Assembly (NCBI RefSeq): GCF_004104015.1
Contig: NZ_RYFV01000001.1
Span: 248,001 to 312,000 of the forward strand
From: Actinomyces oricola
Lineage (GTDB): Bacteria > Actinomycetota > Actinomycetes > Actinomycetales > Actinomycetaceae
Direction of reading: 5' to 3'
DNA: 64,000 nucleotides
Positions 10,754-29,500 of the stretch are shown here, piece after piece. The notes beneath the pieces were generated by a model. That model had not been told where the DNA came from, did no database searches, and saw only the letters and a program-made list of their open reading frames with translations. The position numbers and the translations under genes are program-made. Positions within the stretch are counted from its first letter, which is position 1. Every line of letters begins with the position of its first letter.

Positions 10754-10807
10754 ACCGTATCCCTGGTGGGGATCCGCGGCCGGGGCTCTGGGCGGAGTCT
10801 TGGGGGC

Positions 10808-11542
10808 ATGAGTACTGTCGCATCCGCCTCACCCGGCCTGCGCCTGGCGGGGATCTCCAAGTCCTTCGCCGGCCAGCGCGTCCTGGACGGCCTTGACCTC
10901 ACCGCCCGCCCCGGCCGTGTCTACGGCCTTTTGGGGCTCAATGGCGCGGGCAAGTCCACCGCGTTCAATATTGCCCTGGGACTGTTGCGCCCGGACGCTG
11001 GAAGCGTGGAGGTCCTTGGCGCCCCCTTCCGCCGGGAGTGCCTGGCTCAGGTGGGGGCCCTGGTCAATGGCCCCGCCTTCTTCCCCCAGCTCTCGGCTCG
11101 GCGCAACCTGCTGGTCCACTGCCGCCTGACGGGCACCGCCACTGAGGTCATTGACCCGCTGCTGGAGGTGGTGGACCTGGCCCAGGCGGGTCGCAAGCGC
11201 GCCGGCCGCTTCTCCACCGGCATGAAGGTGCGTTTGGCGTTGGCCATGGCGCTGCTGACCGACCCGGCTGTGCTCATTCTCGACGAGCCCCAGAACGGTC
11301 TGGACCCGGCCGGCATGATTGAGTTGCGGGACCTGGTGCGCGTCTTGGCCGATGAGGGGCGCACGGTGGTGGTCTCCAGCCACCAGCTCGGGGAGATGGC
11401 CCGTATTAGCGACGACATCGGGGTCCTGGCCGCCGGGCGCCTGGTCTACCAGGGGCCGTTGGAGCGCCTTGCCGGGATCGATGACCCTCGGGCGCTTGAG
11501 GCGGCCTTCCTGGAGGCTGTCGAGGCGGGGGCACGGTCATGA
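10808..11542 (+). CDS. ABC transporter ATP-binding protein (BcrA/LanF-like)
   Basis: 244-residue cytoplasmic ATPase of an ABC-2-type exporter. Walker A is GLNGAGKST, the signature is the variant FSTGMKVRL in place of LSGGQ, Walker B is AVLILDEPQNGLDP and the switch His is in VVSSHQLGEM. The FSTGM signature is usual in bacitracin- and lantibiotic-type exporters. ATG at 10808 gives a normal length; an in-frame GTG at 10766 is possible but adds an unconserved stretch. Its stop overlaps the permease start as ATGA. Confidence 0.92.
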   Translation: MSTVASASPGLRLAGISKSFAGQRVLDGLDLTARPGRVYGLLGLNGAGKSTAFNIALGLLRPDAGSVEVLGAPFRRECLAQVGALVNGPAFFPQLSARRNLLVHCRLTGTATEVIDPLLEVVDLAQAGRKRAGRFSTGMKVRLALAMALLTDPAVLILDEPQNGLDPAGMIELRDLVRVLADEGRTVVVSSHQLGEMARISDDIGVLAAGRLVYQGPLERLAGIDDPRALEAAFLEAVEAGARS

Positions 11543-13725: not shown

Positions 13726-14571
13726 GTGCTGCGCATAGCCGTGCCCAATAAGGGCTCTTTGTCCGAGCCCGCCATCACCTTGCTGAAGGAGGCGGGCTAT
13801 CGTACCCGCCGCACCGGCCGTGAACTGGTCCTGGTCGATGAGGCCAACGACGTCGAGCTGTTCTTCTTGCGGCCCCGCGACATTGCCGTCTACGTGGGTC
13901 AGGGCACGGTTCATGCCGGCATTACCGGCCGCGACCTGCTCCTGGACTCCGGGGTGGAGGCCGTGGAGCATCTGGCCCTGGGCTTCGCCCGCTCCACCTT
14001 CCGCTTCGCCGCCCCCGCCGGGACCATGTCGAGCCTGGAGGACGTGGCCGGCAAGCGCGTGGCCACGTCCTATGACGTGCTGGTGCGCAACTACCTCAGT
14101 GAGCATGGGGTGGAGGCCACCACCGTCCACCTCGACGGTGCGGTGGAATCCTCCGTCCAGCTCGGTGTGGCCGACCTCATTGCCGACGTGGTGGAGACGG
14201 GCACCACGCTGCGCGCCGCCGGCCTGGAGGTCTTCGCCGAGCCCATCCTGGCCAGTGAGGCGGTCCTCATCACGACCGGGCGGTATGTGGAGGAGGCGGG
14301 CCTGGCCACGCTGGTGCGCCGCCTGGAGGGGGTGCTGCGGGCGCGCTCCTACGTGCTGGTGGACTACGACGTGCCCATGAGCAAGCTGCACCTGGCGGCG
14401 CGGGTGACTCCCGGCATTGAGTCCCCCACTGTCTCACCGCTGCAGAACCCGGACTGGGTGGCGGTGCGCGCCATGGTCCCCCGCAAGGACACGAACCGGA
14501 TTATGGATGAGCTCTACCAGGTTGGTGCTCGAGCGATCCTGGTCTCCTCGCTGCTGGCCTGCCGCCTATGA
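13726..14571 (+). CDS. hisG: ATP phosphoribosyltransferase HisG (long form)
   Basis: 281-residue first enzyme of histidine synthesis, joining ATP and PRPP. The N-terminus is the type II periplasmic-binding-like catalytic fold ([47 protein letters not shown], the PRPP loop). The last 75 residues are the ACT-like domain that binds histidine for feedback inhibition, so this is the long HisZ-independent form. GTG at 13726 matches the conserved N-terminus and follows AGGAAAG. Its last 6 nt overlap the convergent lipoprotein gene. Confidence 0.96.
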
Positions 14572-15621
14572 GACGGTCAGCAGCGGGTCGCAGATGTCGT
14601 CGGAGGTAATGGCGACCTCCCCCAGCAGGTTGTGCCCGGAGAGGAAGTCGATCATGTCCCCGACGTGCTCCTGAACCAGGGCGCCAATCACGGTCTTCTC
14701 GCTGGGGCGGATGAGTTCGCCGGTGGACACCGCCACCTCCTTGGCCTTGGCGGCCTCGGTGGCATCGGCCAGGTCGGGCAGGTACGCCTTGGTGGCCTCG
14801 ACGGCGGCGTCGGGCTCGTTCACGAAGGCGGTCATGCCCGCGGCGGAGGCCGTGACCAGGTCGATGAGCTCGGTGCGGTGCTGGTCCAGGACGGCGCGGC
14901 TGGTGATGATGGACACTCCCAGCAGTGGGATCTGCTCAGCAATGGGGATGAGGCGCACTGGTGTGCCCGCCAGGCCGATCTGGACGGCATCGTTGTTGGA
15001 GAAGCCCACGATCGCCTCCACCTTGCCGCCGATAAGGGCGGCCTGCTGGGTGAAGCCGATCTCCTGGATGTCCAGGTCGTCCTCTGCCAGCCCCGCGGTG
15101 TCCATGGCCAGTTCGAGGGCGAACCAGTTCTCCCCGTAGCGCCCCGGCAGGCCCACGCTGCGGCCCCGCAGGCCCGCCAGATCGGTGATCGGGGAGGATT
15201 CGGGGACGATGACGCACACCGGGTACTTCTGGTAGCAGCCGCCAATGACCACCAGGTCCGAGCCGTTGGAGGCGGCCACCGCGGCCTCGTCGCCGCCGGC
15301 GATCACCACCTGCTCCGTGCCGGCGGCCAGGGCGTCGAAGAGCCCCTCCTGGGCGCCGTGGTGGCGCAGCTTCACGTCCGGGGCGTACTGGCCGCGCGAG
15401 GCGGCCAGGTAGAAGGGGCCGAATTGGATATTGGGGGTGTAAGTCAGGCCAATGGTCAGGCCACCGGCTGCTGAGCCGGCTTGGGAGGCGGTGCCCGACG
15501 AGCAGGCGGACAGATTCCCCAGAATGCCGGCGACGCCGGCGGCCAGGCCCGCGCCGAGCAGGCGGCGCCGGGAGAGGCTGACCGTGGTGGGCAGGGGGCG
15601 GCCGGCGGAAAAGGGGGGCAT
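14566..15621 (-). CDS. Tat-exported ThiY/RibY-like substrate-binding lipoprotein
   Basis: 351-residue solute-binding protein of the NMT1/ThiY fold. The signal peptide has a twin-arginine motif (SRRRLLG, residues 17-23), a hydrophobic core and a lipobox LSAC with Cys40 as lipidation site, so it should be exported folded by Tat and anchored outside the membrane. The mature start [19 protein letters not shown] resembles RibY and ThiY proteins. ATG at 15621 has GAAGGAA 5 nt upstream. With the permease it is controlled by an FMN riboswitch, so riboflavin or a flavin is the inferred ligand; a pyrimidine like that of ThiY is less likely given the switch. No ATPase gene follows. Confidence 0.88.
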
Positions 15622-15665
15622 GGCGGTTCCTTCGGGTTGGGGGCTCATGGAGGGTGGATCGAAGG

Positions 15666-16472
15666 TCAGGTGGCACGGCGCCCGCGCAGGGCGTTGACGA
15701 CGCGGCTGCGCCGCTCCAGCTCGTGGAGGCACCAGTGGATGGTGGTGGCCAGGGTGCACATGAGGATGAGGGTGGCGAACAGCCCGGTGGTGTCCACCGA
15801 GTCGCGCTGGGAGGACAGCACCATGCCCAGGCCCTCACCCCCCATGGTCATCTCCCCCACCACGGCGCCAGTGATGGACAGGGTGAAGCCGGTGCGCAGG
15901 CCTGAGAGGATCGCAGGCAGGGTCATGGGCAGCTCAATGTGGACCACCATGGTCAGGCCGTGCGCGCCGTCGAGCCTGGCGGCGTCTACGACGTCCGCAT
16001 CCAGGCCGCGCAGTCCCAGGAGGACGGTGACGGTGATGGGGAAGAACACCATGAAGGCGCACAGGAGTACCACGGGAATAGTGCCGTATCCGACCCACAG
16101 GACCAGCAGGGGCGCCACGGCAATGGCGGGGACTGCTTGGCTGGCGGCGACGTAGGGCAGCACGGCGCGGGAGAAACGGCGGCAGTGGTGCAGGCCCCAG
16201 GCCAGGGGCAGAGCGAAAACGGCCGCGACCAGGCACCCCAGGAGGGCTTCGCGCAGGGTCACCCAGGTGTAGGTGAGCAGGCTGGTGCGGGTAATACCCA
16301 GCCACAGGCGTCCCAGGACGGCTACAGGATCGGGCAGGAAGACAGCGGGGACGGCGCCGCTGCGGGTCACGGCCGCCCAGGCGCCCAGAACCAGCAGGCC
16401 GGTGACCAGCGCCGGGCCGGGTGCATTAATGCGGCTGCGCCATGTGGTGGCCGGCGGTGCTGCCGTACTCAC
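15666..16472 (-). CDS. ABC transporter permease (ThiX/RibX-like, SsuC/TauC family)
   Basis: 268-residue inner-membrane permease with about six spans and the BPD_transp_1 EAA loop (DVVDAARLDGAHGLTMVVHIELPMTLPAI). GTG at 16472 is chosen because GAGAGGA lies 9 nt upstream; the longer open frame to 16646 runs through the riboswitch and is not real. The lipoprotein gene follows 44 nt later. FMN-riboswitch control points to flavin uptake (RibX role); other members of this fold move thiamine precursors, sulfonates or nitrate. The ATPase must come from elsewhere. Confidence 0.87.
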   Translation of the reverse strand: MSTAAPPATTWRSRINAPGPALVTGLLVLGAWAAVTRSGAVPAVFLPDPVAVLGRLWLGITRTSLLTYTWVTLREALLGCLVAAVFALPLAWGLHHCRRFSRAVLPYVAASQAVPAIAVAPLLVLWVGYGTIPVVLLCAFMVFFPITVTVLLGLRGLDADVVDAARLDGAHGLTMVVHIELPMTLPAILSGLRTGFTLSITGAVVGEMTMGGEGLGMVLSSQRDSVDTTGLFATLILMCTLATTIHWCLHELERRSRVVNALRGRRAT

Positions 16473-16479
16473 GCGTGCG

Positions 16480-16515
16480 GGTCCTCTCGGGTCGCTCCGG
16501 GGACCGGTTCCCCGG
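16480..16515 (-). promoter_or_regulatory. Candidate expression platform of the FMN riboswitch
   Basis: Two mutually exclusive pairings are visible. A 7-bp hairpin (16509-16515 with 16497-16503) sits upstream of the Shine-Dalgarno. Alternatively GGTCC at 16501-16505 can pair with GGACC at 16480-16484, which overlaps the Shine-Dalgarno GAGAGGA. Such a switch would act on translation; this is an inference from base pairing only. Confidence 0.35.
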
Positions 16516-16619
16516 GGTCCTCCGGGGTGAGGGCGCGACAACCCGCGGGCACCGCCGGCGTCGTCCCCCTGGGATGCGCCGCCCACGGCGGGTCCCTGGG
16601 GCCGGCAGCGCCGGCGCCC

Positions 16620-16758
16620 CGTGCTTCCTCCCATCCGGACTTTCACCGTCGGTGCCGGAGTTCCACCGGCTCAACCGGGGGCGCCTCCCCGGCGGGGCGG
16701 CTTCCCCGGGTCGCGGACTCTCACCGCCGGCTCGGACTTTCACCGACCCCGGAGCACG
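16620..16758 (-). ncRNA. FMN riboswitch (RFN element)
   Basis: On the minus strand the conserved RFN blocks appear in order: GGTGAAAGTCCGAGCCGGCG, GGTGAGAGTCCGCGACCC, then GAGCCGGTGGAACTCCGGCA, CCGACGGTGAAAGTCCGGAT and GGGAGGAAG. The closing stem pairs CGTGCT (16753-16758) with AGCACG (16620-16625). The aptamer binds FMN and normally shuts off flavin synthesis or uptake genes when FMN is plentiful. Here it precedes the permease gene by about 150 nt. A -10-like TAGCCT lies just upstream, so the transcript would start a few bases before the aptamer. Confidence 0.95.
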
Positions 16759-16769
16759 TTGCTGCGCAC

Positions 16770-16775
16770 AGGCTA
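16770..16775 (-). promoter_or_regulatory. -10-like box TAGCCT ahead of the FMN riboswitch
   Basis: TANNNT hexamer 11 nt before the first paired base of the aptamer, the expected distance for a promoter that starts the riboswitch RNA. No clear -35. Confidence 0.4.
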
Positions 16776-16868: not shown

Positions 16869-18353
16869 TCACTTCCTCAGGGCGGCCATCGCGGCATTGA
16901 ACTCCTCGGTGACCTCTTCGGCCGGGCTGGAGGCCGAGGACACCGTCCAGGTCACGAGCAAGTTGAGTAGGAAACCGGGGATGATCTCGTACAGGTCGAA
17001 GATGCCGCCAGGACCGCCCTCGATATTGCCCCACACGAGGACGGTCACCATGCCGATGAGCATGCCGGCCACCGCGCCGGTGGCGGTCAGGCGCCGCCAG
17101 TACAGGCTCAACAGGACGGTTGGGCCGAAGGAGGCCCCAAAACCGGCCCAGGCGAAGGCCACCAGTCCAAGAATGGTGTCATTGCGGCTCCACGCCATGG
17201 CCGCGGCCACCAGGGAAACCCCCAGCACGGCGGTGCGCGAGGCCAGTACCAGGTGGTTCGAGGAGAGCTCACCGGTGCGGATGGTGCGGTAAAGGTCCTC
17301 AATGAGGGCCGAGGAGGTCACCAGCAGCTGGGAGGAGATTGTGGACATAATGGCAGCCAGAATGGCGGCGAGCATAAAACCGGCCACCAGGGGGTGGAAG
17401 AGGAGTTGGCCCAGGGTGATGAATACGGCTTCGGGATTGGTCAGGGCGGCGGGGTCCTGCTTGTAGACGGCAACACCGACAATGGCGGTGGCGGCGGCGC
17501 CGCACACGGCGAAGAGCATCCAGCCAATACCAATGCGGCGGGCCTGCGTGGCCTCCCCCGGGGTGCGGATGGCCATGAAGCGCACAATGATGTGGGGTTG
17601 CCCGAAGTAGCCCAGGCCCCAGGCCACGGCTGAGATGACGCCCATGACCGAGACGCTCGACCCCACCAGGGCCCAGTAGTTGGGGTCCACGGCGCCCACG
17701 GCTGTGACCACCTCACCGGGGCCGCCGAGGCGAATGACGCCGACGACCGGCACCGCAATGAGCGCCACCACCATCATGATGCCCTGGACGAGGTCGGTGT
17801 AGGACACCGCCAGGAAACCGCCGACCAGGGTGTAGAGGATCGTAATGGCGGCGACAATGGTCATGCCCAGCCGGTAGTCCATGCCGAAAGAGGATTCGAA
17901 GAAGGTGCCGCCGGCCACCATTCCCGAGGAGACGTAGAAGGTGAAGAAGACCAGGATGACCACGCCCGCGACCCGGCGCATGAGGTGGCGCGGATCGTGA
18001 AGGCGGTTGTCCAGGAAGCTGGGGATGGTGATGGCGTTGCCGGCCACCTCGGTGTAGGTGCGCAGTCGCGGGGCCACGGCCCTCCAGTTCACCCAGGCGC
18101 CAATGGTCAGCCCAATGGCAATCCAGGACTCGGCCATTCCTGAGGCGTACAGGGCGCCGGGCAGGCCCATGAGCAACCAGCCGGACATGTCGGAGGCCCC
18201 GGCGGACAGGGCGGCGACGAAGGGATTGAGGTCGCGGCCGGCGAGCATGTAGTCGTCAATGTCATTGGTGCGCATGTAGGCCCACAGGCCGATCAAGATC
18301 ATGGCGACGAAGTAAATGATCATCGCAATGGCCTCGAAGGTGGTGTCTGTCAT
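16869..18353 (-). CDS. putP: Sodium/solute symporter, PutP-like (Na+/proline)
   Basis: 494-residue secondary transporter of the SSS family with about 13 membrane spans. Diagnostic stretches are LAGRDLNPFVAALSAGASDM (Na+ site region of TM2), SGWLLMGLPGALY, GGFLAVSYTDLVQG, GLGYFGQPHIIVRFMA and MSTISSQLLVTSSAL, all typical of PutP. It imports proline (or a related amino acid) with Na+. Start ATG with AGAGG 6 nt before it. It stands alone between the riboswitch operon and acpS, in the same direction. Substrate assignment rests on family resemblance. Confidence 0.9.
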   Translation of the reverse strand: MTDTTFEAIAMIIYFVAMILIGLWAYMRTNDIDDYMLAGRDLNPFVAALSAGASDMSGWLLMGLPGALYASGMAESWIAIGLTIGAWVNWRAVAPRLRTYTEVAGNAITIPSFLDNRLHDPRHLMRRVAGVVILVFFTFYVSSGMVAGGTFFESSFGMDYRLGMTIVAAITILYTLVGGFLAVSYTDLVQGIMMVVALIAVPVVGVIRLGGPGEVVTAVGAVDPNYWALVGSSVSVMGVISAVAWGLGYFGQPHIIVRFMAIRTPGEATQARRIGIGWMLFAVCGAAATAIVGVAVYKQDPAALTNPEAVFITLGQLLFHPLVAGFMLAAILAAIMSTISSQLLVTSSALIEDLYRTIRTGELSSNHLVLASRTAVLGVSLVAAAMAWSRNDTILGLVAFAWAGFGASFGPTVLLSLYWRRLTATGAVAGMLIGMVTVLVWGNIEGGPGGIFDLYEIIPGFLLNLLVTWTVSSASSPAEEVTEEFNAAMAALRK

Positions 18354-18444: not shown

Positions 18445-19047
18445 TCACTGTGTTTCATGCCCGCATGACGGGCGGCGGAGCAGCACGATGGCGGCCGCCC
18501 AGTCCTCGTCGTGGGTGAGGGATGCGGGCCAGCACTCTGAGGCCGCACTGCCCGGACCCAGGGAGGCGGTCACGGCGTCGGCCACTCGGCCGCTGAGGCT
18601 GAGCCAGGGGCGCCCCCAGCGGTCGGAGCGGACCTCGATCTGACGCCAGTCCAGGTCCTCGGGCGCGATGACGGGCCCTGCGGGCGTCCCGCACTCCCGC
18701 GCCCGCAGGGCCAGGGCCTGGCTCCAGGCCTTGACGAAGGCCTCCTTGGCCGCCCACCGCGCCGCCAGATGCTCGGCCGCCCCCTGCGCGCCGGCTCCCC
18801 GCTGCTGCGCCCTGGCGGCGGCATCGCGGCGCTCCCGGGCCGTGAAGGCCCGGTCGGTGAAGACGGTGCCGGGCTGCTTCAACTGCTCGGCCAGGGAGGG
18901 GACGTGGACCAGGTCCATGCCCACGGCGAGGCCGCCACCGGGCACTGGCGGTGGCTGCGGCAGGTGCGGGGCCCGGCGTTGGCCCCCGGCGCCCATCCGG
19001 CGGTGCTCCTCGTCGGCCGCTGGGGGCTCGGTGGCAGGGGTGTCCAT
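18445..19047 (-). CDS. acpS: Holo-[acyl-carrier-protein] synthase AcpS with N-terminal extension
   Basis: Phosphopantetheinyl transferase that moves 4'-phosphopantetheine from CoA to a carrier-domain serine. Both Mg/CoA motifs are present: GMDLVHVPSLAEQL (residues about 43-56) and LAARWAAKEAFVKAW (about 94-108). At 200 residues it is longer than usual AcpS (about 120-130) owing to a Pro/Gly-rich N-terminal 40 residues and an insert. The ATG at 19047 has a leaderless box; a shorter form starting near residue 42 is possible. In mycobacteria acpS sits next to fas; here a convergent gene separates them. The FAS carrier domain is the probable substrate. Confidence 0.88.
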   Translation of the reverse strand: MDTPATEPPAADEEHRRMGAGGQRRAPHLPQPPPVPGGGLAVGMDLVHVPSLAEQLKQPGTVFTDRAFTARERRDAAARAQQRGAGAQGAAEHLAARWAAKEAFVKAWSQALALRARECGTPAGPVIAPEDLDWRQIEVRSDRWGRPWLSLSGRVADAVTASLGPGSAASECWPASLTHDEDWAAAIVLLRRPSCGHETQ

Positions 19048-19054
19048 GCCCGCG

Positions 19055-19060
19055 ACCCTA
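19055..19060 (-). promoter_or_regulatory. -10-like box TAGGGT for leaderless acpS
   Basis: TANNNT hexamer 7 nt before ATG 19047, the same hexamer and nearly the same spacing as at helY. Confidence 0.45.
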
Positions 19061-19192
19061 GATGATGGCCCGGATAATGGTCCGGCTCATGGTCCATCAC
19101 CTCCGGGCACGCCGCGGGCCAATCCCCACCGGTCAGTGCCTGGCGCCCTTCGCCGCCCAGTGGAAGCGGATTCCCGCGACGTTATCAACCTG

Positions 19193-19198
19193 TATTCT
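19193..19198 (+). promoter_or_regulatory. -10-like box TATTCT for leaderless gene at 19207
   Basis: TANNNT hexamer 8 nt before the GTG at 19207, with no Shine-Dalgarno. It is divergent from the acpS promoter 135 bp away. Confidence 0.45.
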
Positions 19199-19206
19199 CC
19201 CTTGGT

Positions 19207-19869
19207 GTGACATTCGATCCTCATGCTCAACCCGCCGGCCTGCGTTTGCCGGGGGGAGCCGTCCCCGCTCATCTCGAGCAGACCGTGCGCGACCGGGCCT
19301 GGTCGGCGATCCTCATGGGACTGGGCCATCCCGACGAGGTCGCCGACAGCGTCTATGGCGTCGTCTCCGAGGACGAGTTGCCCTATGAGCGGGCGCGTGA
19401 GGCCGCGCAGTTCCTCATTGCGGCCAGGAGGCGTCAGCAGGAATCCTTCGGCGAGGTCACGACGAATCTGGACCGGGCTTTCGGCGAGCTCAACTCGAAA
19501 CGGATTATCGCCCGGCAGAACCTGGGCTGCTGCCTGAACTGCGCCCTCGATGAGGTCCATGCCATTGCGGCGGGCGACCCCTCCTGGGCGGGCTTCGTCT
19601 TCTTCCACCAGCAGGATGCTGAGCGTCTCGTGGAATCGGGGGCCTGCGAGCTCGGATTCGGGGTCTTCAGGCCCTACTACCTCACCGATGCGCAGCGCGA
19701 CGCCATGACCTCCGCTGAGCTCGACGCCTTCCTCGACGAGCGGGCCGCGGAGTTGACGAGCACGCTCATAATCCCGATCCTGCGCAGCCACGGCTTGGGC
19801 GTGGAGTGGGACGGAGACCCCGACCGGCGAATCTCCATCTCCGGCGGCCAGTACTACAGCCCGATCTGA
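19207..19869 (+). CDS. DUF6891-like protein of unknown function
   Basis: 220-residue soluble protein, no signal peptide or membrane span. The middle holds a cysteine cluster NLGCCLNCALDEV, followed by FVFFHQQDAERLVESG, and the end reads DRRISISGGQYYSPI. I associate this with the DUF6891 family; function is unknown. The CCxxC cluster could bind metal or form a disulfide. GTG at 19207 is supported by the promoter box. It is wedged between acpS and fas in the opposite direction and ends at a 19-bp hairpin shared with fas. Confidence 0.75.
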   Translation: MTFDPHAQPAGLRLPGGAVPAHLEQTVRDRAWSAILMGLGHPDEVADSVYGVVSEDELPYERAREAAQFLIAARRRQQESFGEVTTNLDRAFGELNSKRIIARQNLGCCLNCALDEVHAIAAGDPSWAGFVFFHQQDAERLVESGACELGFGVFRPYYLTDAQRDAMTSAELDAFLDERAAELTSTLIIPILRSHGLGVEWDGDPDRRISISGGQYYSPI

Positions 19870-19897
19870 GTCTCGCACCCACGGCGGACGCCAGTGG

Positions 19898-19939
19898 ACG
19901 AGTCGGGGCCACCGCGCTGGCGCGGTGGCCCCGACTCGT
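19898..19939. terminator. Perfect 19-bp hairpin between convergent genes, likely bidirectional terminator
   Basis: 19898-19916 pairs without mismatch with 19921-19939 around a CTGG loop. It lies 28 nt after the stop at 19869 and 18 nt after the fas stop at 19958, so it can serve both strands. No U-tract on either side. Confidence 0.6.
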
Positions 19940-19957
19940 GCGTGAACTGCGAGTGCC

Positions 19958-22900
19958 TCAGTTCTCGACCGGCCGCTCCCCGGTGTGGTAGACGCCGTCG
20001 GCGCCCAGACGCGCCCGGGGGTCGAGCAGCATGGCGGCCTCAACCTCATGCGGGTCGCGCCCGTCCTCGGCCTCACCCAGACGACGGCCCTGCACCTGCT
20101 CGAAGAGCGGGGCGCGACCGATCATGCCGGCGCGGCGCTGGCGGGTGCCGGCGGCCAGGCGGGCATTGGCCTGCTCCAACCAGCGGTCGACAGCCCCCTG
20201 CCCCTCAGCGCGGCGCAGCGCCGCCTCGAAAGCGCCGGGGTGCACAATCGCAACCAGGCCGGAAACATGCCCGAAGCCCAGGCTGGTGAGCAGTCCCGCG
20301 CGGACCGGGCCGGCGCCCGGGACGCGGCCGGAGTCGCCGCCGCGACCCGCCAGGCGGATGGGGGTGCGCGGCCATACCCAGAAGGAGTCCTTGGCCAGCG
20401 GGGCGTCGACCACATCCAGGGAGGCGTTGCCCGGGGCCACGCCGGTGGCCAGGATCTCCGTCAGGCCCGCCACCTGGAAGACTGCGGCACCGCCCTTAGC
20501 GTGGCCGGTAATAGTCTTCTGGGACACCGCCACCAGCGGGTTGCCCTCAGACCTGCCCAGGGCCCGCGCCAGGCGGGTGTGGAGCTCGGATTCGTTGGGA
20601 TCGTTGGCGCCCGTGGAGGTGTCGTGCTTGGAGACCACGGCAATGTCGTCGGCCTCCACGCCCAAAGCCCCCAGGGCCCGCGCCAGGCGCGAGTTCCTGC
20701 CGCCGCGGCCCGCCCCCAGGGCGCCCAGTCCCGGGGCCGGAATGGAGGTGTGGGCGCCGTCGGCGTAGGAGGACACGAAGCCGAGGACACCGGCCACCGG
20801 CAGACCCAGGCGGGCGGCCACGTCACCACGGGCCAGAATCACCGTGCCGCCGCCTTCGGCCTCTACGAAGCCGCCGCGGCGCCGATCGTTGGCGCGCGAG
20901 AAGTGCCGCTCAGAAATGCCCTTGGCGCGCATGGCGGCCGCCTCGGCGGTGGCGTTCATATTGCCGAAGCCCACCACCGACTCAATGGAGATGTCGTCAA
21001 TGGCGCCGGCGATCACCACCTCGGCCTTGCCCAGGGCGATCTTGTCCCAGCCCTCCTCAATGGAGACCGCGGCGGTGGCGCAGGCGCTGACCGGCTGGAC
21101 CATGGAGCCGTAGCCGCCAATGTAGGACTGCATGACGTGGGCGGCCACCACGTTGGGCAGGGCCTCCTGGAGGATGTCGCTGGGGCGCTCCTCACCCAAG
21201 AAGCGGCCGACGAACATTTTGCGCATGGACTCCATGCCGCCGAAGCCGGTGCCCTGGGTGGAGGCCACGTCGGAGGGGTGAACCGCGCGCAGCAGCTCGG
21301 CGGGGGTGAAGCCGGCCGCTAGGAAGGCGTCCACGGCGGTGACCAGGTTCCATGAGGCAATGGTGTCCATGCCCTGGGTCATGGCGGCGGGGATGCCCCA
21401 GCGCTCCGGATCGAAATCGACCGGGAATTGGCCGCCCACCGTGCGCGAGAGTGCGGCACGGCGCGGCACGCGGGCCAGGGAGCCGGACAGGCGCGTGACC
21501 GTCCACTCGCCGGTCTCGGGGTCGGGGACCACCAGGGTGTGCTCGGGGTCGGAGGCCTCAATGGTGCGGGCGGTTGCCTCGTCGGCCACGGACAGGGTGA
21601 TGTCATGGTCGAGGTAGACGGTGACCTCCTCGTCGGCGATGGTGGCAATAACGCCGTCGTCGACGAATTCACGGATGCCGCAGCGGGCCACGACCTCGTC
21701 GCGGTAGCGCTCGAAGACATCCTCCTCGGGGACGAGCTCGCCCTCGGCGTCGTACCAGCCGGCCTTGGGAGAGTCCTGCCAGGTCAGCAGGCCCATGCCC
21801 CAGGCCAGCTCCAGCACGCCGGCGGCCGTCAGGTCGACGTCCTCCCCGCCGCCCATGCCCAGCTCGGCCTCGCGGCGCGTGCGCCCCGAACCCCAGGTGG
21901 AAACCTCGCCGGTGGAGACAATGACGACCAGATCGGCCGGGTCGACGTCCACCTCGCCCCACTGCGGGGCGGTGGGCTGGGTGGGAACCACCGGGGTGGG
22001 CAGGGCCCGCACGGTAGCGGGGGCAGAGGCCGGGGCCTTCTTGGCGGCCGCAGCAGCAGCAGCGGCCGCGGCGTTCTCCCGCAGGGCCACGAGGTCAATG
22101 TCCTGATCCAGCCCGCCGGTCAGGTCGGCGTCCACGGGGGCCACAGCAGCCTGGACGCGGACCTCCGGGGTGCACAGGGCCACCAGCTCGGCGGCGATCT
22201 CCTGGGTGGACCAGGTGCGCACGCCGGCGGCCTCGACGGCGGCCACGAGCGGGTCGTTGCCGCCCATGAGGCCGGTACCGCGCACCCAGCCGATGCGGGG
22301 GTGGGCCAGGGTGACGCGACCGGACCAGGCGCGCTCCGAGCTCCAGCGGTTGACCACGGCGTCCAGGGCGGACTTGACCTCACCGTAGGCGCCGTCCCCG
22401 CCGAAGGTGCCGCGGTTGGGTGAGCCGGGAAGCACCACGTGGAGGCGGTGGTCAACATGGGTGTCGGTGCCAATGGCGCTCAGGGCCGCAATGGACCGCT
22501 CCACGCTCCACAGCAGCAGCCGGGTCTGGGACTCGGCGGCCGGGCCGGCGTCGGCCAGGGTGCCGACCACGCGCGGGGCGGCGAAGGGGAACAGGAGGGT
22601 GGGGACCAGGGCCTCCTTAATGACCGTGGTCTTGCCGCCGGCGGTGAGCGCCTGCTCGCTGCCAATCCATTCGGCCAGGGCGTCCACATCCCGGTAGGAG
22701 GACAGGTTCGCCGGCGTCATCCACAGGCGGGCCCCGGCCGAGGCGTGCTGGCGGTACAGGTCCGTGGCGAACGCCAGGCGCTCGTGGGTCAGGCGCGAAC
22801 TGGTCGCCACCACGGTGGCGCCCCCCGCCAGGAGTTCACCCACCACGGCAGCGGCGATAGAACCGGGGGCCACACCGGTGACCACCGCGACATCCTGGGC

Positions 22901-25900
22901 CCAGCGCACCGCGGCGTCACCGGGGCTCGGCTGACGGCGGGCGGCCTCGGCCAGGGAGTCGGCCAGGGCGGCCCGCTCGGCCCGGTCCTCCAAGGCGCCC
23001 TCGCGCAGGGCGCGGGCCCACCAGGCGGCATGGTCGGCGACGGCCTGGCCCAGGCCCACGAAGGAGGCGGGCGTCAGCACGCGGCGGGCCCGGTCCAGCT
23101 CAGTCTGGCCGCTGCCCAGGCGGGCCAGGTCCTCGCGGGCGGTGGCCCAGCGGTCGTCGATGAGGACGGCGCGCTCGGCGGCGAAGGCCGGGGCAACGCT
23201 CTTGACCCAGCCGGCGCCCAGCTCAGCATCCAGGGCCGCAATGGCGGCGCGCGTAGCGGCGGCCTCGTCCCCGGCGTCGGCCGGCACGGTGATCCTCTCA
23301 CTGAGCCCCAGGGCGTCCAGGAGGGTGCGGGCGGTGGTGGCCAGGGCGCCATTGGGGCCGGTCACGCTGGCGGCCAGAGCGTCCAGGGCGGCGGAGTCCA
23401 CCACGGCGCCCCCGACGCCGCCACCGGCACTGGGCATGGCCACGCTCACACCGTGGTCGGCGGCCACGGCCTTCACGGCGGCGTCAATGAGGGCGTCCAC
23501 GGCCGCAGCCGAGGTCAAGGGCGCCGAAGAACCCAGGGAGGCCAAATCCTCTCCGCGCATTGAGGCGCCCTCGCGGGTGCCGAGCATGATGGCGGCGGTG
23601 ACGTGGGAGACCCAGCCCTCGCCCAGGCCCCAGGTGCCGGTGACGCGCTCGGCAATGCGGCTGGCGCGCACGCCCGAGGGGCCCAGGATGCGGGCCAGGC
23701 CGGTGCGCACGGCCTCGGAGAGGACCGGCCCGAAGGCCTTGTAGCCCGGTGCGCCCTTGGCGACAGTGGCGGCCAGGGCCGTCATGTCGGCGTCGGCGGC
23801 GCCGTCAATGCTGGCGAGCTGAAGCTCGGTGCCCAGGTCCATGAGGAGCTGGTTGCGGCGAGAGGAGACGCCATTGGTCAGGGTCTCGGTGGTGTCGGTG
23901 GCCCCCACCTGCTCGGGACGGATGCGCGAGGCGTGCGCCAGAAGCACAGTCAGGGCGTCGGTGGCGCCGAAGGGCAGATCGTCCACCGCTCCGGCGGCGA
24001 CCGACGCGGCCGGGGCCGGGGCGGCTGCGGCCTCGGGGGCCGGCGCGGAGGGCTCGGGGGCCGGGCCGGGCTGCGCGGGCGCGGCCGGGACCTCAACGAC
24101 GGGCTCCTCCAGCTCGACGGCGGGGTCGGTGTCGGTGGCCAGTACGCGCGCCTCGTCGCGGCGGGCGTTGTGGACGGTGACGTGGCGTCCGGCGTGGCGC
24201 GGCAGCAGCAGCGTCTTGGAGGCGAGGTTGGCCAGTGTCGGGGCGGCCGCCAGGCCCACCTCGACAATGTGCTCAATACCCAGCCCGCCCTGGGCCCCGG
24301 AGAGCAGGAACACGTCCTGGGTCTCGATCCAGCGCACCGGGGAGGCGAACTGCCAGGCCAGGAGCTCAACCAGGAGCTGGCGAGCCAGCTCGGTGGGCTT
24401 GGCGGCCCACTCCTCCCAGTCGGCCAGGATGGTCTTGACCGGTTCGGAGGGGACCACCTGGAGGATGGAGCGGGCGAACTCGGGGGTGAGCTCGAAGGGC
24501 CGCGCCACGAGGTTGGGCACGTAGCGGTCGACCAGGCGGCCGTAGTCCAGATCGGTGGGGACCAGGGCCAGGAGGCGCTCGCGGAACTCGGGCACGCCGG
24601 GGCGCAGAACCTCGGAGTGGAAGGGCACGTCAATGCCGGGCACGAACATGAAGGGGTTTTTGCCGCCGCGGGCCTTGGCCTTGGCCCGGCTGTCCGCGGC
24701 CAGGGCGTCCAGGCCGGCCACGGTCCCGGCCACGGCGTACTGCACGCCGGCCAGGTTGTGGTTGACGATCTGGAGGAACTCGCCGGTGCTCTCGCTAATG
24801 GAGGCGACATAGGCCTCCACCTGTTCGGCGCTAATGCCGCACTGGTTGGGACGCAGGGCGCCCATGCGGTAGTTGGAGGCACCGGAGTGGTCGCGCGGCA
24901 CCAGGGAGTGCATGGTCGAGCCGCGCTGGAAGACGATGGAGATTGTCGTCTCCACCGGCATGACCCGCCCGTAAGCGCTCAGAGCCGTGTACTCCCCCAG
25001 GGAGTGGCCGGCGAAGGCCGCGTCCTCCACCAGGGCCCCGGCCTCGGCCAGGCGGGCGGTGGTGGCCATGGCGACAGTGGCCAGGGCCACCTGGGTGAAC
25101 TGGGTGAGGTTGAGCAGGCCCTCGGGGTGGCGGTAGGTCACGCCGCGCGCCGTCATCTCCGTGGGGTTGTCACGCACCAGGGCGATGACGGAGAAGCCGA
25201 GCTCGGCGCGGGTGTGGGCGTCAGCGCGCTCCCACACCTCGCGGGCGGCCCTGGATGAGCGCATCTCGTCCAGGCCCATGCCCGGGGACTGGATGCCCTG
25301 CCCGGGGTAGACGTAGGCGGTGGGTTGAGGCACGGTGACGGCGGTGCCCCGGGAGACCACCTCCCCGTCAATACGGCAGACGACCTCCAAGACGTAGCCG
25401 CCGCCGCGCACCAGGCCAGTGCGCTCCACGGAGACCTCGACGTCGTCGCCCAACTCCACCGGGCCGGTCATGACGTAGGTCCAGCCGGCCAGCACGTGGT
25501 GGGAGCCGTCGGCCGCGGTGGAGGCGGCAACCTGCTGGGCGGTGGCCGACAGCCACATGCCGTGCACCAGTGGAGCCTCCATGCCGGCGACCTTCGCGGC
25601 GTGGTAGCTGGTGTGGATGGGGTTGAAGTCGCCGGTGACGCGGGCGAAAGCGGTCATGTCCGTCGGGGCGGTCACGGTCACTCGGCGCAGCAGGCGGCGG
25701 GCGGCCGGGGCGGTGCGGCGGCCGGTGCCCCCGGCCAGTTCGGGCGCGGAGGGGACGGCGGTGCCCGCGGCGCGGCCGCGGATGGCGAAGCGCTCGCGCA
25801 TGAGGGCCACGAGCGCGCCGTCGGCCGCGTCGGTCAACTCCAGGCGCACGTCCACGACGCGACCGGCACTGGACTCCTCCAGGGCGGCGACCCAGCCATC

Positions 25901-28900
25901 GACCTGGATGCGCGGGGCGGCCCCGGCAGTGGCGCCCCGGCGGGCCCAGGCCTCCAGCTCCGCCAAAGAGCGGTGCAGGTCAATGGTGTGATCCAGGTGG
26001 ACGGCTCCGAGCAGGCCCTCAATCAGGGGCATGCCCTCCTCGACGACGCTTCCCAGGGCCGCATAGACCACCGGCCAGCACGGGCCCAGTAGGGCGTCGG
26101 GCACCAGTGGGGCGGCGGACAGGCTGGTGGGCAGGGCGTTGGCGGTCACCGAGCCGTGGTCGTGGCCCAGGGTGTCGGCCAAAGTGAACTGGGCGTGGAC
26201 GGTGCCGAAGGGCTGGGTGGCCGGGCGGCCCAGGGCGTCGGTGGCGCCCTCGGCGGCCGGGCGCACCTGCGGCAGCTGCTCGACCAGGTCGCCGACAATG
26301 CTCACGGCCCCCACGCCGGCCGTGGTGCGCAGCAGGTCGTTCATGGTCTCGCTAATGCGCTCGGGGTCCACCAGCGGGGCGGCGCCATCCCAGGCGCGGG
26401 CCAGGCGCAACGGCACCACCAGGCGGCGCACCGCGTGGATGGCCTCACCGCCGGGGGTGGCGTCCCAGTGGGTGTCGAGGTGAATGTCCAGGTCGTAGGC
26501 GTCCTCGGCGATGTCGGGGCGGGCCTTGACCGTGTAGGCGCCCTCGTCCAGGACGGTGGCGGGGTTAATGCTCAGGTGGCCGTTCCACAGCACGTGGGGG
26601 GCGGTGCGCACCAGTTCGGTGGCGTCGGCCACCGGGGCGCTGCCGGCGCCCCACGAGGTGCCCAGGCGGCCGGCGGCAGCCCGCTCAGGGGCCTCGGCGG
26701 CCTGCAGGGCCTCAACGGCGGCGGTCTCGAAGCGCCCCAACAGCTCGCCAATGGGCTCGTTAATGGTGGTAATACCGGCCACGGCCACCGGTCCGGGGAT
26801 AATGCGGACCTGGTCGGCAGTGTAGCGCGGGTCCTGGGACTGCCACAGGGAGTCGGTGCCCCACCAGCGCAGGATGTCGGCGTCGACCACCGGGACGAAG
26901 GGGACCGGCTTGGGGTGCTTGGAGCACAGGTCCACGAACCAGGCGGCGTCCGCCGGCTCCACCAGGGTGGTGGCGGCCGCGGGGTAGCGCCCGGCCAGAG
27001 CGGCCAAGGCGGCGTCGGAGTCCACCACGGCGCTCTCGTCGGCGAAAAGAGTCTCGACTTCGCCGCGGTCGGCGCTGGACAGGCGGGCCTCAGTGCGGTG
27101 CAGCAGGTCGAGGAAGCGGTCGTACCAGCCCTCATCCGCCCAGTCCTCGACGGTGGCGGCGCGCCCCTCGTGCGGGGCCACGCACAGTTCGGCGTAGCGG
27201 GCGGCCCACTGCAGGTAGGTCATGGACTCGACATCGCCGAAGTAGGGCTTGGCGGTCTTGGCCAGGGCCTCAATCATCTCCTCGCGGCGCGCGGCCATGG
27301 CGGCCTCGTCACCGGCGAGCTCCTGAATGAGGCGCGAGGCCTTGGCCGAGGAGTTGTCGATCTCGTACAGGTCGGCGCGCAGATGGGACAGCCCGGAGGT
27401 CATGCCGCCCGCGGAGGCGCCCGAGGCGACCCAGCCTCCCCGGTCGGTGGGGTCGACCCCGGGGGTATCGACCAGCAGCTGCTTGACATCGTCGTTCGTC
27501 AGGGCCTCCCGGCAGGTCATGGCGGCGGTGCCGACCATGACGCCGTCCACCGGGGCGGCGGCGGTGCCGTAGGCCAGGGCCCAACGGCCGGTCAGGTAGT
27601 CGGCGGCCCGCTCGGGGGTGCCAATGCCGCCGCCGACGCAGACAATGACGTTGTCGTGGGTACGAATGGAGTCGTAGGTGGCCAGGAGCATGGTGTCCAG
27701 GTCCTCCCACGAGTGGTGGCCCCCGGCGTGACCGTCCTCGATCTGCATAATGATCGGGGTGGCGGGTACGGACCTGGCGATGGCCAGCACCTGGCGAATC
27801 TGGTCGACGGTGCCGGGCTTGAGGGCGATGTAGGGGAAGCCCTCGGCGTTGAAGCGGGTAATGAGGGCCTTGGCCTCATCCAGTTCGGGGATGCCGGCCG
27901 AGATGGTGATGCCGTCAATGGGGGCGCCCCCGCCACGGGCCTTGGACAGCAGGCGCTGGGTGCCCAGGTGGAGATTCCACAGGTAGCGGTCCATGAACAT
28001 GGCGTTGAAGGCGGCGGTGCGGCCCGGCTCCAGGGCCTGGGACAGCCCGTCGAGGTTGTCGGCGAGCACCCCGGCGGTGACCTGGCCGCCCCCGGCGAGC
28101 TCCGCCCAATAGCCGGCATTGGCGGCGGCCGCCACAATGCCCGGGTCCACGGTGGTGGGGGTCATGCCGGCCAGGAGGACGGCGGAGCGGCCAGTCAGGC
28201 GGGTAAAAGCGGTCTCAACCGTCAGGCGCCCGTCGGGCAGACGGGTCAGGCGCGGGGCGAAGCGGGAGCGGTCCACGGTGGGGGTCGGGGCGGCGCCCTC
28301 ACGATCCAGGGCGTCAATGGTGGCGGCGGTGCCGGCGGGGATGACGGTGGCGCCGGTGCCGGCCAGGACCGCCTCGGTCAGGCGGGTCAGCACGGTGCCG
28401 GGGCCCAGGTCCAGGACGGTGCGCACCGGGGTGGAGTCGTGGTAGAGCGCGGTGTGGACAATGCCCGGCCAGTCGACGGGATCAATGAGGACCGAGACGG
28501 CCAGGTCGCGGGCCAGGGCCTCATCCAGGCCGCAGGCGGCGGCCCAGGACACCACGTCGGTGACGGCGCTGGCCAGCAGCGGGGTGTGGAAGGGCACGGA
28601 GGTGGCAATGAACTCGGTGACTGGGGCCAGGACGGCGCCACCGCGGCGGCGCTCCTTGCGGTCCTTGGCGCTGCGGGCGGCGGCCGCCTCCAGGGCGGTG
28701 ACCACGGTCTCCAGGTCGGCGGGGCGACCGGAAAGGGTGTGGGACTGGCGGCCGTTGGTGACACCGATGTTAATGCGCTCGGCGGCGGGCACACGGGCCA
28801 GGACGGCGTCGAGCACGGGGCGGGTCACGCCGCGCACCGAAAGCATGGGGGTGGCCTCCCCCACTGTGCCCAAGTCGAGCCGGCGGGTGGCGCGGGCGGC

Positions 28901-29500
28901 GGCGGCGCCCATGAGGCGGGCCAGGGCGTGGATCTGGATGACGGCCTCGTCGGTGGGCCGGCCGCCGGCCGCGCTCAGCGCGTCGAGGAGGGCCACGCCC
29001 AGCACTCCTTGGGAATGGCCGATGACGCCGGCCGGGCGGTTGGTCAGCACATCCACGCCGGCGGCCGGAAGGCTGGCTAGGGCGGCGTGCTGGGCCAGGA
29101 GGATGCCGGGCACGGAGATGTCGGCGGTGTCGGCCAGGGCCTTGGGGGCGGGGGCCACCGGGGCGGCCTCGTCGTCCAGGAGGCGCGGGCCGCGGGGGGT
29201 GATGGTCAGCAGTTCGGTGGCCACGGGCGCCAGGCGATCGGCGACCGCAGCGTCAATGGCCGCGAGTTGGGAGGCCAAGTCACGGTCCAGGCCCACAAGC
29301 TCCTCGAGCGTGGAGCGCCACGGGGTGGCCTGGCCCCCGAAAGCTAGAACGTAGGGCTCGCCACTGGCCAGGCGGTCGGCACTGGTGCGGGCGGCGGATG
29401 GGGAGCTGGATGTCATCGTGCTGCTTCCGGTGGTGATTGACTGGGTCGTAGCGCCCTTGGGGGCGGCGGTTGAGGTAGTGGGCGGGAGAACGTGGGTCAT
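19958..29500 (-). CDS. fas: Type I fatty acid synthase, single-chain multidomain
   Basis: 3180-residue cytosolic megasynthase making saturated acyl-CoAs from acetyl- and malonyl-CoA. Domain order and landmarks: acetyl transferase (GHSQG near residue 163), enoyl reductase (LLAGMTPTTVDPG near 447), hot-dog dehydratase (GDFNPIHTSY near 1292), malonyl/palmitoyl transferase (GHSLGEY near 1498), acyl carrier (NGVSSRRNQLLMDLG, acceptor Ser near 1877), ketoreductase (VTGVAPGS near 2207), ketosynthase (active Cys in SACATAA near 2807, His in KHDTSTG near 2957 and ITGHAKGG near 2998). This is the mycobacterial FAS-I order and size. ATG at 29500 lies 16 nt after the accD stop. The repeat-rich, Ala/Pro-rich linkers are normal for FAS-I. 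Confidence 0.97.
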   Translation of the reverse strand: MTHVLPPTTSTAAPKGATTQSITTGSSTMTSSSPSAARTSADRLASGEPYVLAFGGQATPWRSTLEELVGLDRDLASQLAAIDAAVADRLAPVATELLTITPRGPRLLDDEAAPVAPAPKALADTADISVPGILLAQHAALASLPAAGVDVLTNRPAGVIGHSQGVLGVALLDALSAAGGRPTDEAVIQIHALARLMGAAAARATRRLDLGTVGEATPMLSVRGVTRPVLDAVLARVPAAERINIGVTNGRQSHTLSGRPADLETVVTALEAAAARSAKDRKERRRGGAVLAPVTEFIATSVPFHTPLLASAVTDVVSWAAACGLDEALARDLAVSVLIDPVDWPGIVHTALYHDSTPVRTVLDLGPGTVLTRLTEAVLAGTGATVIPAGTAATIDALDREGAAPTPTVDRSRFAPRLTRLPDGRLTVETAFTRLTGRSAVLLAGMTPTTVDPGIVAAAANAGYWAELAGGGQVTAGVLADNLDGLSQALEPGRTAAFNAMFMDRYLWNLHLGTQRLLSKARGGGAPIDGITISAGIPELDEAKALITRFNAEGFPYIALKPGTVDQIRQVLAIARSVPATPIIMQIEDGHAGGHHSWEDLDTMLLATYDSIRTHDNVIVCVGGGIGTPERAADYLTGRWALAYGTAAAPVDGVMVGTAAMTCREALTNDDVKQLLVDTPGVDPTDRGGWVASGASAGGMTSGLSHLRADLYEIDNSSAKASRLIQELAGDEAAMAARREEMIEALAKTAKPYFGDVESMTYLQWAARYAELCVAPHEGRAATVEDWADEGWYDRFLDLLHRTEARLSSADRGEVETLFADESAVVDSDAALAALAGRYPAAATTLVEPADAAWFVDLCSKHPKPVPFVPVVDADILRWWGTDSLWQSQDPRYTADQVRIIPGPVAVAGITTINEPIGELLGRFETAAVEALQAAEAPERAAAGRLGTSWGAGSAPVADATELVRTAPHVLWNGHLSINPATVLDEGAYTVKARPDIAEDAYDLDIHLDTHWDATPGGEAIHAVRRLVVPLRLARAWDGAAPLVDPERISETMNDLLRTTAGVGAVSIVGDLVEQLPQVRPAAEGATDALGRPATQPFGTVHAQFTLADTLGHDHGSVTANALPTSLSAAPLVPDALLGPCWPVVYAALGSVVEEGMPLIEGLLGAVHLDHTIDLHRSLAELEAWARRGATAGAAPRIQVDGWVAALEESSAGRVVDVRLELTDAADGALVALMRERFAIRGRAAGTAVPSAPELAGGTGRRTAPAARRLLRRVTVTAPTDMTAFARVTGDFNPIHTSYHAAKVAGMEAPLVHGMWLSATAQQVAASTAADGSHHVLAGWTYVMTGPVELGDDVEVSVERTGLVRGGGYVLEVVCRIDGEVVSRGTAVTVPQPTAYVYPGQGIQSPGMGLDEMRSSRAAREVWERADAHTRAELGFSVIALVRDNPTEMTARGVTYRHPEGLLNLTQFTQVALATVAMATTARLAEAGALVEDAAFAGHSLGEYTALSAYGRVMPVETTISIVFQRGSTMHSLVPRDHSGASNYRMGALRPNQCGISAEQVEAYVASISESTGEFLQIVNHNLAGVQYAVAGTVAGLDALAADSRAKAKARGGKNPFMFVPGIDVPFHSEVLRPGVPEFRERLLALVPTDLDYGRLVDRYVPNLVARPFELTPEFARSILQVVPSEPVKTILADWEEWAAKPTELARQLLVELLAWQFASPVRWIETQDVFLLSGAQGGLGIEHIVEVGLAAAPTLANLASKTLLLPRHAGRHVTVHNARRDEARVLATDTDPAVELEEPVVEVPAAPAQPGPAPEPSAPAPEAAAAPAPAASVAAGAVDDLPFGATDALTVLLAHASRIRPEQVGATDTTETLTNGVSSRRNQLLMDLGTELQLASIDGAADADMTALAATVAKGAPGYKAFGPVLSEAVRTGLARILGPSGVRASRIAERVTGTWGLGEGWVSHVTAAIMLGTREGASMRGEDLASLGSSAPLTSAAAVDALIDAAVKAVAADHGVSVAMPSAGGGVGGAVVDSAALDALAASVTGPNGALATTARTLLDALGLSERITVPADAGDEAAATRAAIAALDAELGAGWVKSVAPAFAAERAVLIDDRWATAREDLARLGSGQTELDRARRVLTPASFVGLGQAVADHAAWWARALREGALEDRAERAALADSLAEAARRQPSPGDAAVRWAQDVAVVTGVAPGSIAAAVVGELLAGGATVVATSSRLTHERLAFATDLYRQHASAGARLWMTPANLSSYRDVDALAEWIGSEQALTAGGKTTVIKEALVPTLLFPFAAPRVVGTLADAGPAAESQTRLLLWSVERSIAALSAIGTDTHVDHRLHVVLPGSPNRGTFGGDGAYGEVKSALDAVVNRWSSERAWSGRVTLAHPRIGWVRGTGLMGGNDPLVAAVEAAGVRTWSTQEIAAELVALCTPEVRVQAAVAPVDADLTGGLDQDIDLVALRENAAAAAAAAAAKKAPASAPATVRALPTPVVPTQPTAPQWGEVDVDPADLVVIVSTGEVSTWGSGRTRREAELGMGGGEDVDLTAAGVLELAWGMGLLTWQDSPKAGWYDAEGELVPEEDVFERYRDEVVARCGIREFVDDGVIATIADEEVTVYLDHDITLSVADEATARTIEASDPEHTLVVPDPETGEWTVTRLSGSLARVPRRAALSRTVGGQFPVDFDPERWGIPAAMTQGMDTIASWNLVTAVDAFLAAGFTPAELLRAVHPSDVASTQGTGFGGMESMRKMFVGRFLGEERPSDILQEALPNVVAAHVMQSYIGGYGSMVQPVSACATAAVSIEEGWDKIALGKAEVVIAGAIDDISIESVVGFGNMNATAEAAAMRAKGISERHFSRANDRRRGGFVEAEGGGTVILARGDVAARLGLPVAGVLGFVSSYADGAHTSIPAPGLGALGAGRGGRNSRLARALGALGVEADDIAVVSKHDTSTGANDPNESELHTRLARALGRSEGNPLVAVSQKTITGHAKGGAAVFQVAGLTEILATGVAPGNASLDVVDAPLAKDSFWVWPRTPIRLAGRGGDSGRVPGAGPVRAGLLTSLGFGHVSGLVAIVHPGAFEAALRRAEGQGAVDRWLEQANARLAAGTRQRRAGMIGRAPLFEQVQGRRLGEAEDGRDPHEVEAAMLLDPRARLGADGVYHTGERPVEN

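Follow-up and report, generated by a model that had tools for sequence, protein, structure and literature searches.

The name RibXY was introduced in 2013 for a homologue of ThiXYZ that lacks the ATPase and is found with FMN riboswitches in Chloroflexi (PMC3766115). In 2015, ribXY genes with FMN riboswitches were described in Actinobacteria, whether or not these possess the biosynthetic pathway, the assignments being made from a COG0600 permease and a COG0715 binding protein, with an initial RibY threshold of at least 38% identity over 80% to the protein of Chloroflexus aurantiacus (PMC4418817). According to the same source, an E. coli ribB mutant, which is auxotrophic for riboflavin, is complemented by ribXY of C. 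aurantiacus when riboflavin is low, the RibY of C. aurantiacus is cited as binding flavins, and a few Chloroflexi carry a linked ATPase gene, ribZ. Streptomyces davaonensis ribXY is reported as a highly active importer (PMC11039241), and in a gut survey RibXY appears among prototrophs as well as auxotrophs (PMC6593275). The RibXY type is thus already known, Actinobacteria and ATPase-less forms included (PMC3766115, PMC4418817, PMC11039241). Only for a few Chloroflexi do the cited papers settle which ATPase drives RibXY. A precedent for a vitamin importer with a shared ATPase is given by the vitamin B6 importer P5PAB, which uses AfuC (PMC8427247). New here are the context of auxotrophy, the RibY/RibH pattern within the genus, the conservation of the ATPase-less state and MsiK as the proposed motor.

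The DNA under study, hereafter the window, is a stretch of 64 kb from Actinomyces oricola, whose genome (G000) comprises 2.93 Mb on 78 contigs with a stated completeness of 100%. The features of the window discussed below are as follows.

10766..11542, plus strand: ABC ATPase gene elsewhere in the window, preceding a membrane-rich ORF
14549..14585, no strand assigned: hairpin spanning the convergent ribY and hisG stop codons, found by folding, without a T run
14566..15621, minus strand: ribY, NMT1/ThiY-fold binding lipoprotein, 351 aa, ATG start (PF09084, E 1.2e-25)
15666..16472, minus strand: ribX, ABC permease of the nitrate/sulfonate type, 268 aa, GTG start (PF00528, E 4.6e-29)
16618..16760, minus strand: FMN riboswitch aptamer (RFN element; Rfam RF00050, 74.7 bits, model positions 1–138, full length)
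16869..18353, minus strand: PutP sodium/proline symporter gene, upstream of the riboswitch-ribXY unit

On the minus strand the order is FMN riboswitch, ribX, ribY; the Pfam E-values of both genes were obtained on frames slightly longer than the final gene calls. The GTG start of ribX has AGAGGA just upstream. At the other end, hisG on the plus strand terminates at 14571 and overlaps the ribY frame tail to tail by 6 bases. The preliminary description had recognized a full RFN element ahead of a permease and an NMT1-fold lipoprotein, a convergent end at hisG, and an RR signal with a lipobox at Cys40. All of this could be confirmed by the matches to RF00050 (full model), PF00528 and PF09084, by the 6-base overlap, and by the SRRRLLG signal and the LSAC lipobox of RibY. 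It had also described the unit as devoid of an ATPase gene, and the ORF survey of the 64-kb window found none in it either. The ABC ATPase at 10766–11542 looks like part of an exporter, judged from the membrane-rich ORF that follows.

In the whole-window scan the riboswitch scored 74.7 bits (cut-off 66.2, E 4.3e-15) and was the sole match above the gathering score in the window, so that no TPP riboswitch appeared among the matches. The genome-wide riboswitch search revealed no second FMN site in the host. Binding of FMN to riboswitches of this family lowers expression. A search for a terminator or expression platform gave no consensus terminator, and the riboswitch leader folded no better than shuffled sequences. 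The hairpin between ribY and hisG is possibly a shared terminator without a T run; its folds (121 nt on the plus strand, z −0.28; 101 nt on the minus strand, z −1.19) are not clearly above those of shuffles.

Similar to the RibXY of C. aurantiacus and other Chloroflexi described in the literature, the locus combines an FMN riboswitch, a permease and an NMT1-type binding protein in an operon without an ATPase. It differs in that it belongs to an Actinomyces, an apparent auxotroph, and in the RR (Tat-type) signal of its lipoprotein. The S. davaonensis system, in contrast, is reported from the rosB roseoflavin cluster (PMC11039241). Pfam and NCBIfam matches place a COG0600-type permease beside a COG0715/NMT1-type binding protein, the combination used for RibXY assignments. 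The unit is very probably an actinobacterial RibXY riboflavin importer, presumably repressed via its FMN riboswitch and powered by an ATPase encoded elsewhere, most likely MsiK. The RibY lipoprotein would capture riboflavin at the outer face and a RibX dimer would form the channel, driven by the separately encoded ATPase, most likely of the MsiK/UgpC type. With plentiful flavin, FMN would bind the riboswitch and ribXY expression would be lowered.

RibY occurs in all 49 genomes of the genus. Of the 151 genomes of the family, 136 have it at E 1.1e-51 or better, a count that excludes a match in G034 with E 4.2e-4. Among the remaining 15 family genomes, G036 carries ribX on a truncated contig. An FMN match was obtained in 150 of the 151 genomes, and among the 30 best family FMN loci 24 have ribX and 23 have ribY within flanks of 1.5 kb. 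Further named relatives were taken as the best 80 of at least 193 RibY matches, and 15 of these 80 loci are from Actinomyces with 55–65% identity to RibY. In 78 of these best 80 loci ribX precedes ribY, the other two (L340, L365) being cut contigs. When scanned with a model derived from 16 FMN sites, 69 of the best 80 of at least 193 loci showed the riboswitch before ribX. The remaining 11 loci are seven from Streptomyces, which differ from the A. oricola unit in that no FMN riboswitch was found in front, one from Saccharothrix, with an FMN site about 5 kb off on the other strand, and three cut contigs (L340, L349, L365). Rfam's own FMN model was concordant in the 10 loci tried, nine of them with a site, and found no FMN site in Streptomyces L331.

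By PDB profile the best solved relatives of RibY are ThiY 3ix1 (E 1.1e-16) and 4nmy, although two other binding proteins outrank 3ix1 in a single-sequence comparison, and the nearest structures by profile include pyrimidine-binding ThiY and THI5 proteins. The binding-protein fold is thus shared with ThiXYZ, and the unit could be read as a ThiXY-like importer of a thiamine precursor with an incidental FMN riboswitch. However, the riboswitch is of the FMN and not of the TPP class, it precedes ribX in the 69 of the best 80 of at least 193 loci mentioned above, and there is no linked ATPase as in ThiXYZ. Near the N-terminus of mature RibY the motif also differs: the stretch LDWxPN..H of 3ix1 and 4nmy, which we take to be a mark of pyrimidine binders, is replaced in the RibY alignment by a GLTYxPNxQFxPxY-like stretch. 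Its P, Q, F, P and Y as well as a later RHH are invariant across 66 RibY rows (the window plus 65 loci from the best 80 of at least 193). This replacement points away from a pyrimidine pocket, and we regard uptake of a thiamine precursor as very unlikely.

The auxotrophy of the host was approached through lumazine synthase (RibH, PF00885), by which alone biosynthesis was scored. The genome search for ribH that the preliminary description had proposed was carried out and did not find PF00885 in the host, whereas the same PF00885 control was positive in 14 of 14 genomes. Since only one FMN riboswitch, one NMT1 protein (RibY, the single NMT1 match found in the host genome) and no lumazine synthase were found, the host is probably a riboflavin auxotroph. 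As lumazine synthase was not found, RibXY is probably also the main flavin source of the cell. Within the genus PF00885 is present in 21 of 49 genomes and was not found in 28, which points to riboflavin auxotrophy as a common trait of Actinomyces. Twelve genomes of the genus were scored for both traits: the nine with RibH all have two FMN sites, the three without it all have one.

On a quick tree of ribX and ribY from 35 of the 49 genomes, at least 7 changes of RibH state are required, at least 5 of them forced by well-supported branches. Shuffled labels gave about 12 changes; RibH is therefore clustered, yet still changes often. With RibY present in 49 of 49 genomes and RibH gained or lost repeatedly, the importer is constant while biosynthesis comes and goes. 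An importer in all 49 genomes combined with a variable RibH makes the missing motor testable in Actinomyces. Common auxotrophy, if true, would be relevant to vitamin exchange within the communities that these bacteria inhabit.

An adjacent or fused ATPase was rejected. Besides its absence from the window unit, none was found beside ribY in 83 family loci (flanks of about 1.5 kb, 77 with ribX), apart from one spurious signature-like match. Likewise, there was none within 2.8 kb of ribY in the best 80 of at least 193 named loci, several of which lie on contigs short of the 6 kb flanks; nine of these 80 gave ATPase matches above 60 bits (64–124), all at least 2.8 kb from the ribY match. This consistent absence could be taken to mean that RibXY is a secondary transporter working without any ATPase. 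RibX, however, carries an EAA-like loop (DAARLDGAHGLTMVVHIELP), and in the permeases of ABC importers the EAA loop is the docking site of the ATPase. Together with the linked ATPase gene reported for a few Chloroflexi (PMC4418817), this makes a secondary transporter highly improbable. The riboswitch, the RibH result and the ATPase-less operon kept in relatives rather support flavin uptake with a borrowed ATPase, as the preliminary description had suggested.

To cover the ATPases of the host, 52 ORFs below 520 aa (38 found by motif and 14 missed by it) out of a genome with 100 PF00005 matches were compared with eight E. coli ATPases; of the longer frames, that on contig 28 was rechecked. A dedicated orphan ThiZ/SsuB-like ATPase, for which a search had been proposed together with that for ribH, was rejected, as none was present among the 52 short ORFs. 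The only one of the 52 with TauB as best reference at 39% lies on contig 12 and belongs to a nitrate/sulfonate-type operon of methyltransferase, ATPase, binding protein and permease. For two further short ORFs TauB was also the closest reference, with identities of about 30% and 29%; the former, on contig 21 (L126), was discarded, its setting being read as PadR-like and exporter-like.

The contig-12 ATPase could drive RibXY. RibX and the permease of the contig-12 operon are of one type, the nearest NCBIfam models of both being SaoP, then SsuC/TauC, those of RibX all below cut-off. On the other hand, this ATPase has its own permease, and an orthologue was found in only 15 of 49 genomes of the genus (82–100% identity, next best 49%). 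It is missing in 18 of the 28 RibH-negative genomes, all 18 of which have RibY. We therefore consider a contribution of the contig-12 ATPase to RibXY improbable.

A comparison with two small genomes that contain RibXY, G030 and G055, was used to find the ATPases that are kept throughout. In G030 the motif recovered 15 of 20 short-frame hits, the remaining 5 being compared with the references separately. Eight of the 15 are reciprocal best matches in both the host genome and G055, and six of these, at 44% or more, are MetN (identified by BLAST to the E. coli ATPases), a GlnQ-like protein, FtsE, SufC, a LolD/exporter-like protein and MsiK. FtsE and SufC are not importers. With the contig-28 type as seventh, at least seven ATPases are kept in both small genomes. 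The latter is encoded in a 902-aa frame with permease followed by ATPase, has counterparts in G030 and G055 (53% and 58%), and is the one further hit that the contig-12 ATPase gives in the host at E 1e-25.

Among these conserved proteins MetN, the GlnQ-like protein and the contig-28 ATPase could be borrowed by RibXY. Their counterparts in G030 and G055 show 53–64% identity to those of the host, and over 196 aa the contig-28 ATPase shares 43% identity with TauB. It is nevertheless nearer to PotA and CysA than to TauB, with PhnT2/PotA types as nearest NCBIfam models. In addition, all three adjoin or follow membrane-protein ORFs in the host genome and therefore look dedicated. Borrowing from one of them, MetN, GlnQ-like or the PotA/PhnT2-type protein of contig 28, appears rather unlikely.

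Of the seven kept ATPases only MsiK is of importer type without a recognizable permease alongside. The relatives of MsiK serve as a common motor for several sugar importers. The host protein (370 aa, contig 25) matches the UgpC family with 463.9 bits (cut-off 432) and has one orthologue in each of the 49 genomes of the genus with 89–100% identity. In the family, 146 of 151 genomes have a match. At E 1e-80, only 3 of the 136 RibY-positive genomes lack one (G045, G069 and G134, each in at least 80 contigs), and 13 of the 15 genomes without a strong RibY still have MsiK. Because MsiK is nearly universal, its co-occurrence with RibXY is weak evidence, and because it would be present anyway for sugars, its conservation is suggestive but no proof. 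By elimination and conservation, RibXY is most likely driven in trans, with MsiK as motor.

Neighbors of msiK are a four-span ORF directly downstream (about 520 aa, about four predicted spans, unmatched in Pfam and NCBIfam), a DUF4032 protein and a divergent protein kinase, none of them matching a permease family; in G055 a DUF4032-like ORF directly follows msiK instead. Because of this unclassified four-span ORF, "orphan" merely means for msiK that no known permease family is encoded beside it. The ORF and the finding of the contig-28 ATPase both weaken the reading of MsiK as motor. To our knowledge, MsiK is known with sugar permeases and not with a permease of the RibX type. A connection of MsiK with RibXY was not found among the titles and abstracts listed for open-licence papers.

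In the multitask ATPase MsmX, four positions have been mutated (PMC7658222). After alignment to 6yir, three of them are kept in host MsiK (D77, E110 and K154, with R104 replaced by A), in comparison to two in MsiK of G030, one each in MsiK of G055 and E. coli PotA, and none in MalK. RibXY resembles the systems described for MsiK, MsmX and AfuC/P5PAB in that an importer without an ATPase gene would be served by one encoded elsewhere. The partners reported for MsmX and AfuC, however, are sugar, hexose-phosphate and vitamin B6 importers (PMC7658222, PMC8427247), whereas the coupling to RibXY is one that we infer here. We tentatively propose that in riboflavin-auxotrophic Actinomyces a single ATPase, MsiK, whose relatives drive sugar importers in common, would also energize vitamin B2 import, through a permease belonging to another ABC family. 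If true, carbon uptake and flavin supply would run on one motor.

Finally, the preliminary description had proposed that the binding protein folds, perhaps with its ligand, before Tat export. Among the best 80 of at least 193 loci, a lipobox Cys could be assigned in 79, although the signal was weak in two of these; the remaining one, L340, is truncated by the contig end. With a loose pattern, the twin arginine was found in all 15 Actinomyces loci at 55–65% identity to RibY but in only 19 of the 65 other loci of these 80, some of the 19 being doubtful, which makes the proposal weak. The 65 include four loci titled Actinomyces at 44–46% identity. Of the earlier interpretation, flavin uptake with an ATPase in trans is supported; the orphan ThiZ/SsuB-like ATPase was not found among the 52 short ORFs, and the significance given to Tat is weak. 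The RR signal also occurs outside the genus, in other families. Tat export is usual in Actinomyces, but it is not a fixed or required property of RibXY.

The convergent ends of ribY and hisG meet in the following element:

window 14549-14585: GC hairpin holding the overlapping stop codons of ribY and hisG, tail to tail

Of the 15 close Actinomyces loci, 14 have a hisG match, and across these the computed spacing between the two stop codons ranges from 6 bases to more than 2 kb. In the close Actinomyces loci hisG is oriented against ribXY, unlike the same-strand order with hisG downstream of ribXY that is often observed in other genera (L317, L324, L334, L341, L354, L366 and others among the best 80 of 193 RibY relatives). 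This orientation contrast between genera points to an ancient ribXY-hisG neighbourhood that has since undergone an inversion.

Among the same best 80 of 193, no FMN riboswitch was found ahead of the Streptomyces ribXY pairs (L331, L335, L358, L360, L362, L371, L372). An oxidoreductase-like and an alcohol-dehydrogenase-like ORF were recognized near ribXY in L331 and L358 by reading of the ORFs.

Outside the window, the genes of two candidate RibXY motors have the following surroundings:

L139:7959-11106 (host contig 12): importer set of the nitrate/sulfonate type, order methyltransferase-ATPase-RR lipoprotein-permease
L140:3556-5118 (host contig 25): ORF of ~520 aa directly 3' of msiK, roughly four spans predicted

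All parts of the contig-12 importer are present, and orthologues of its ATPase occur in 15 of the 49 same-genus genomes. For the msiK neighbour, Pfam and NCBIfam gave no match.

The window also contains a large ORF:

window 18445-29500: ORF of 3180 aa

From its translation, it reads as a type I fatty acid synthase. A phosphopantetheinyl-transferase-like ORF, likewise recognized by reading of translations, is located downstream.
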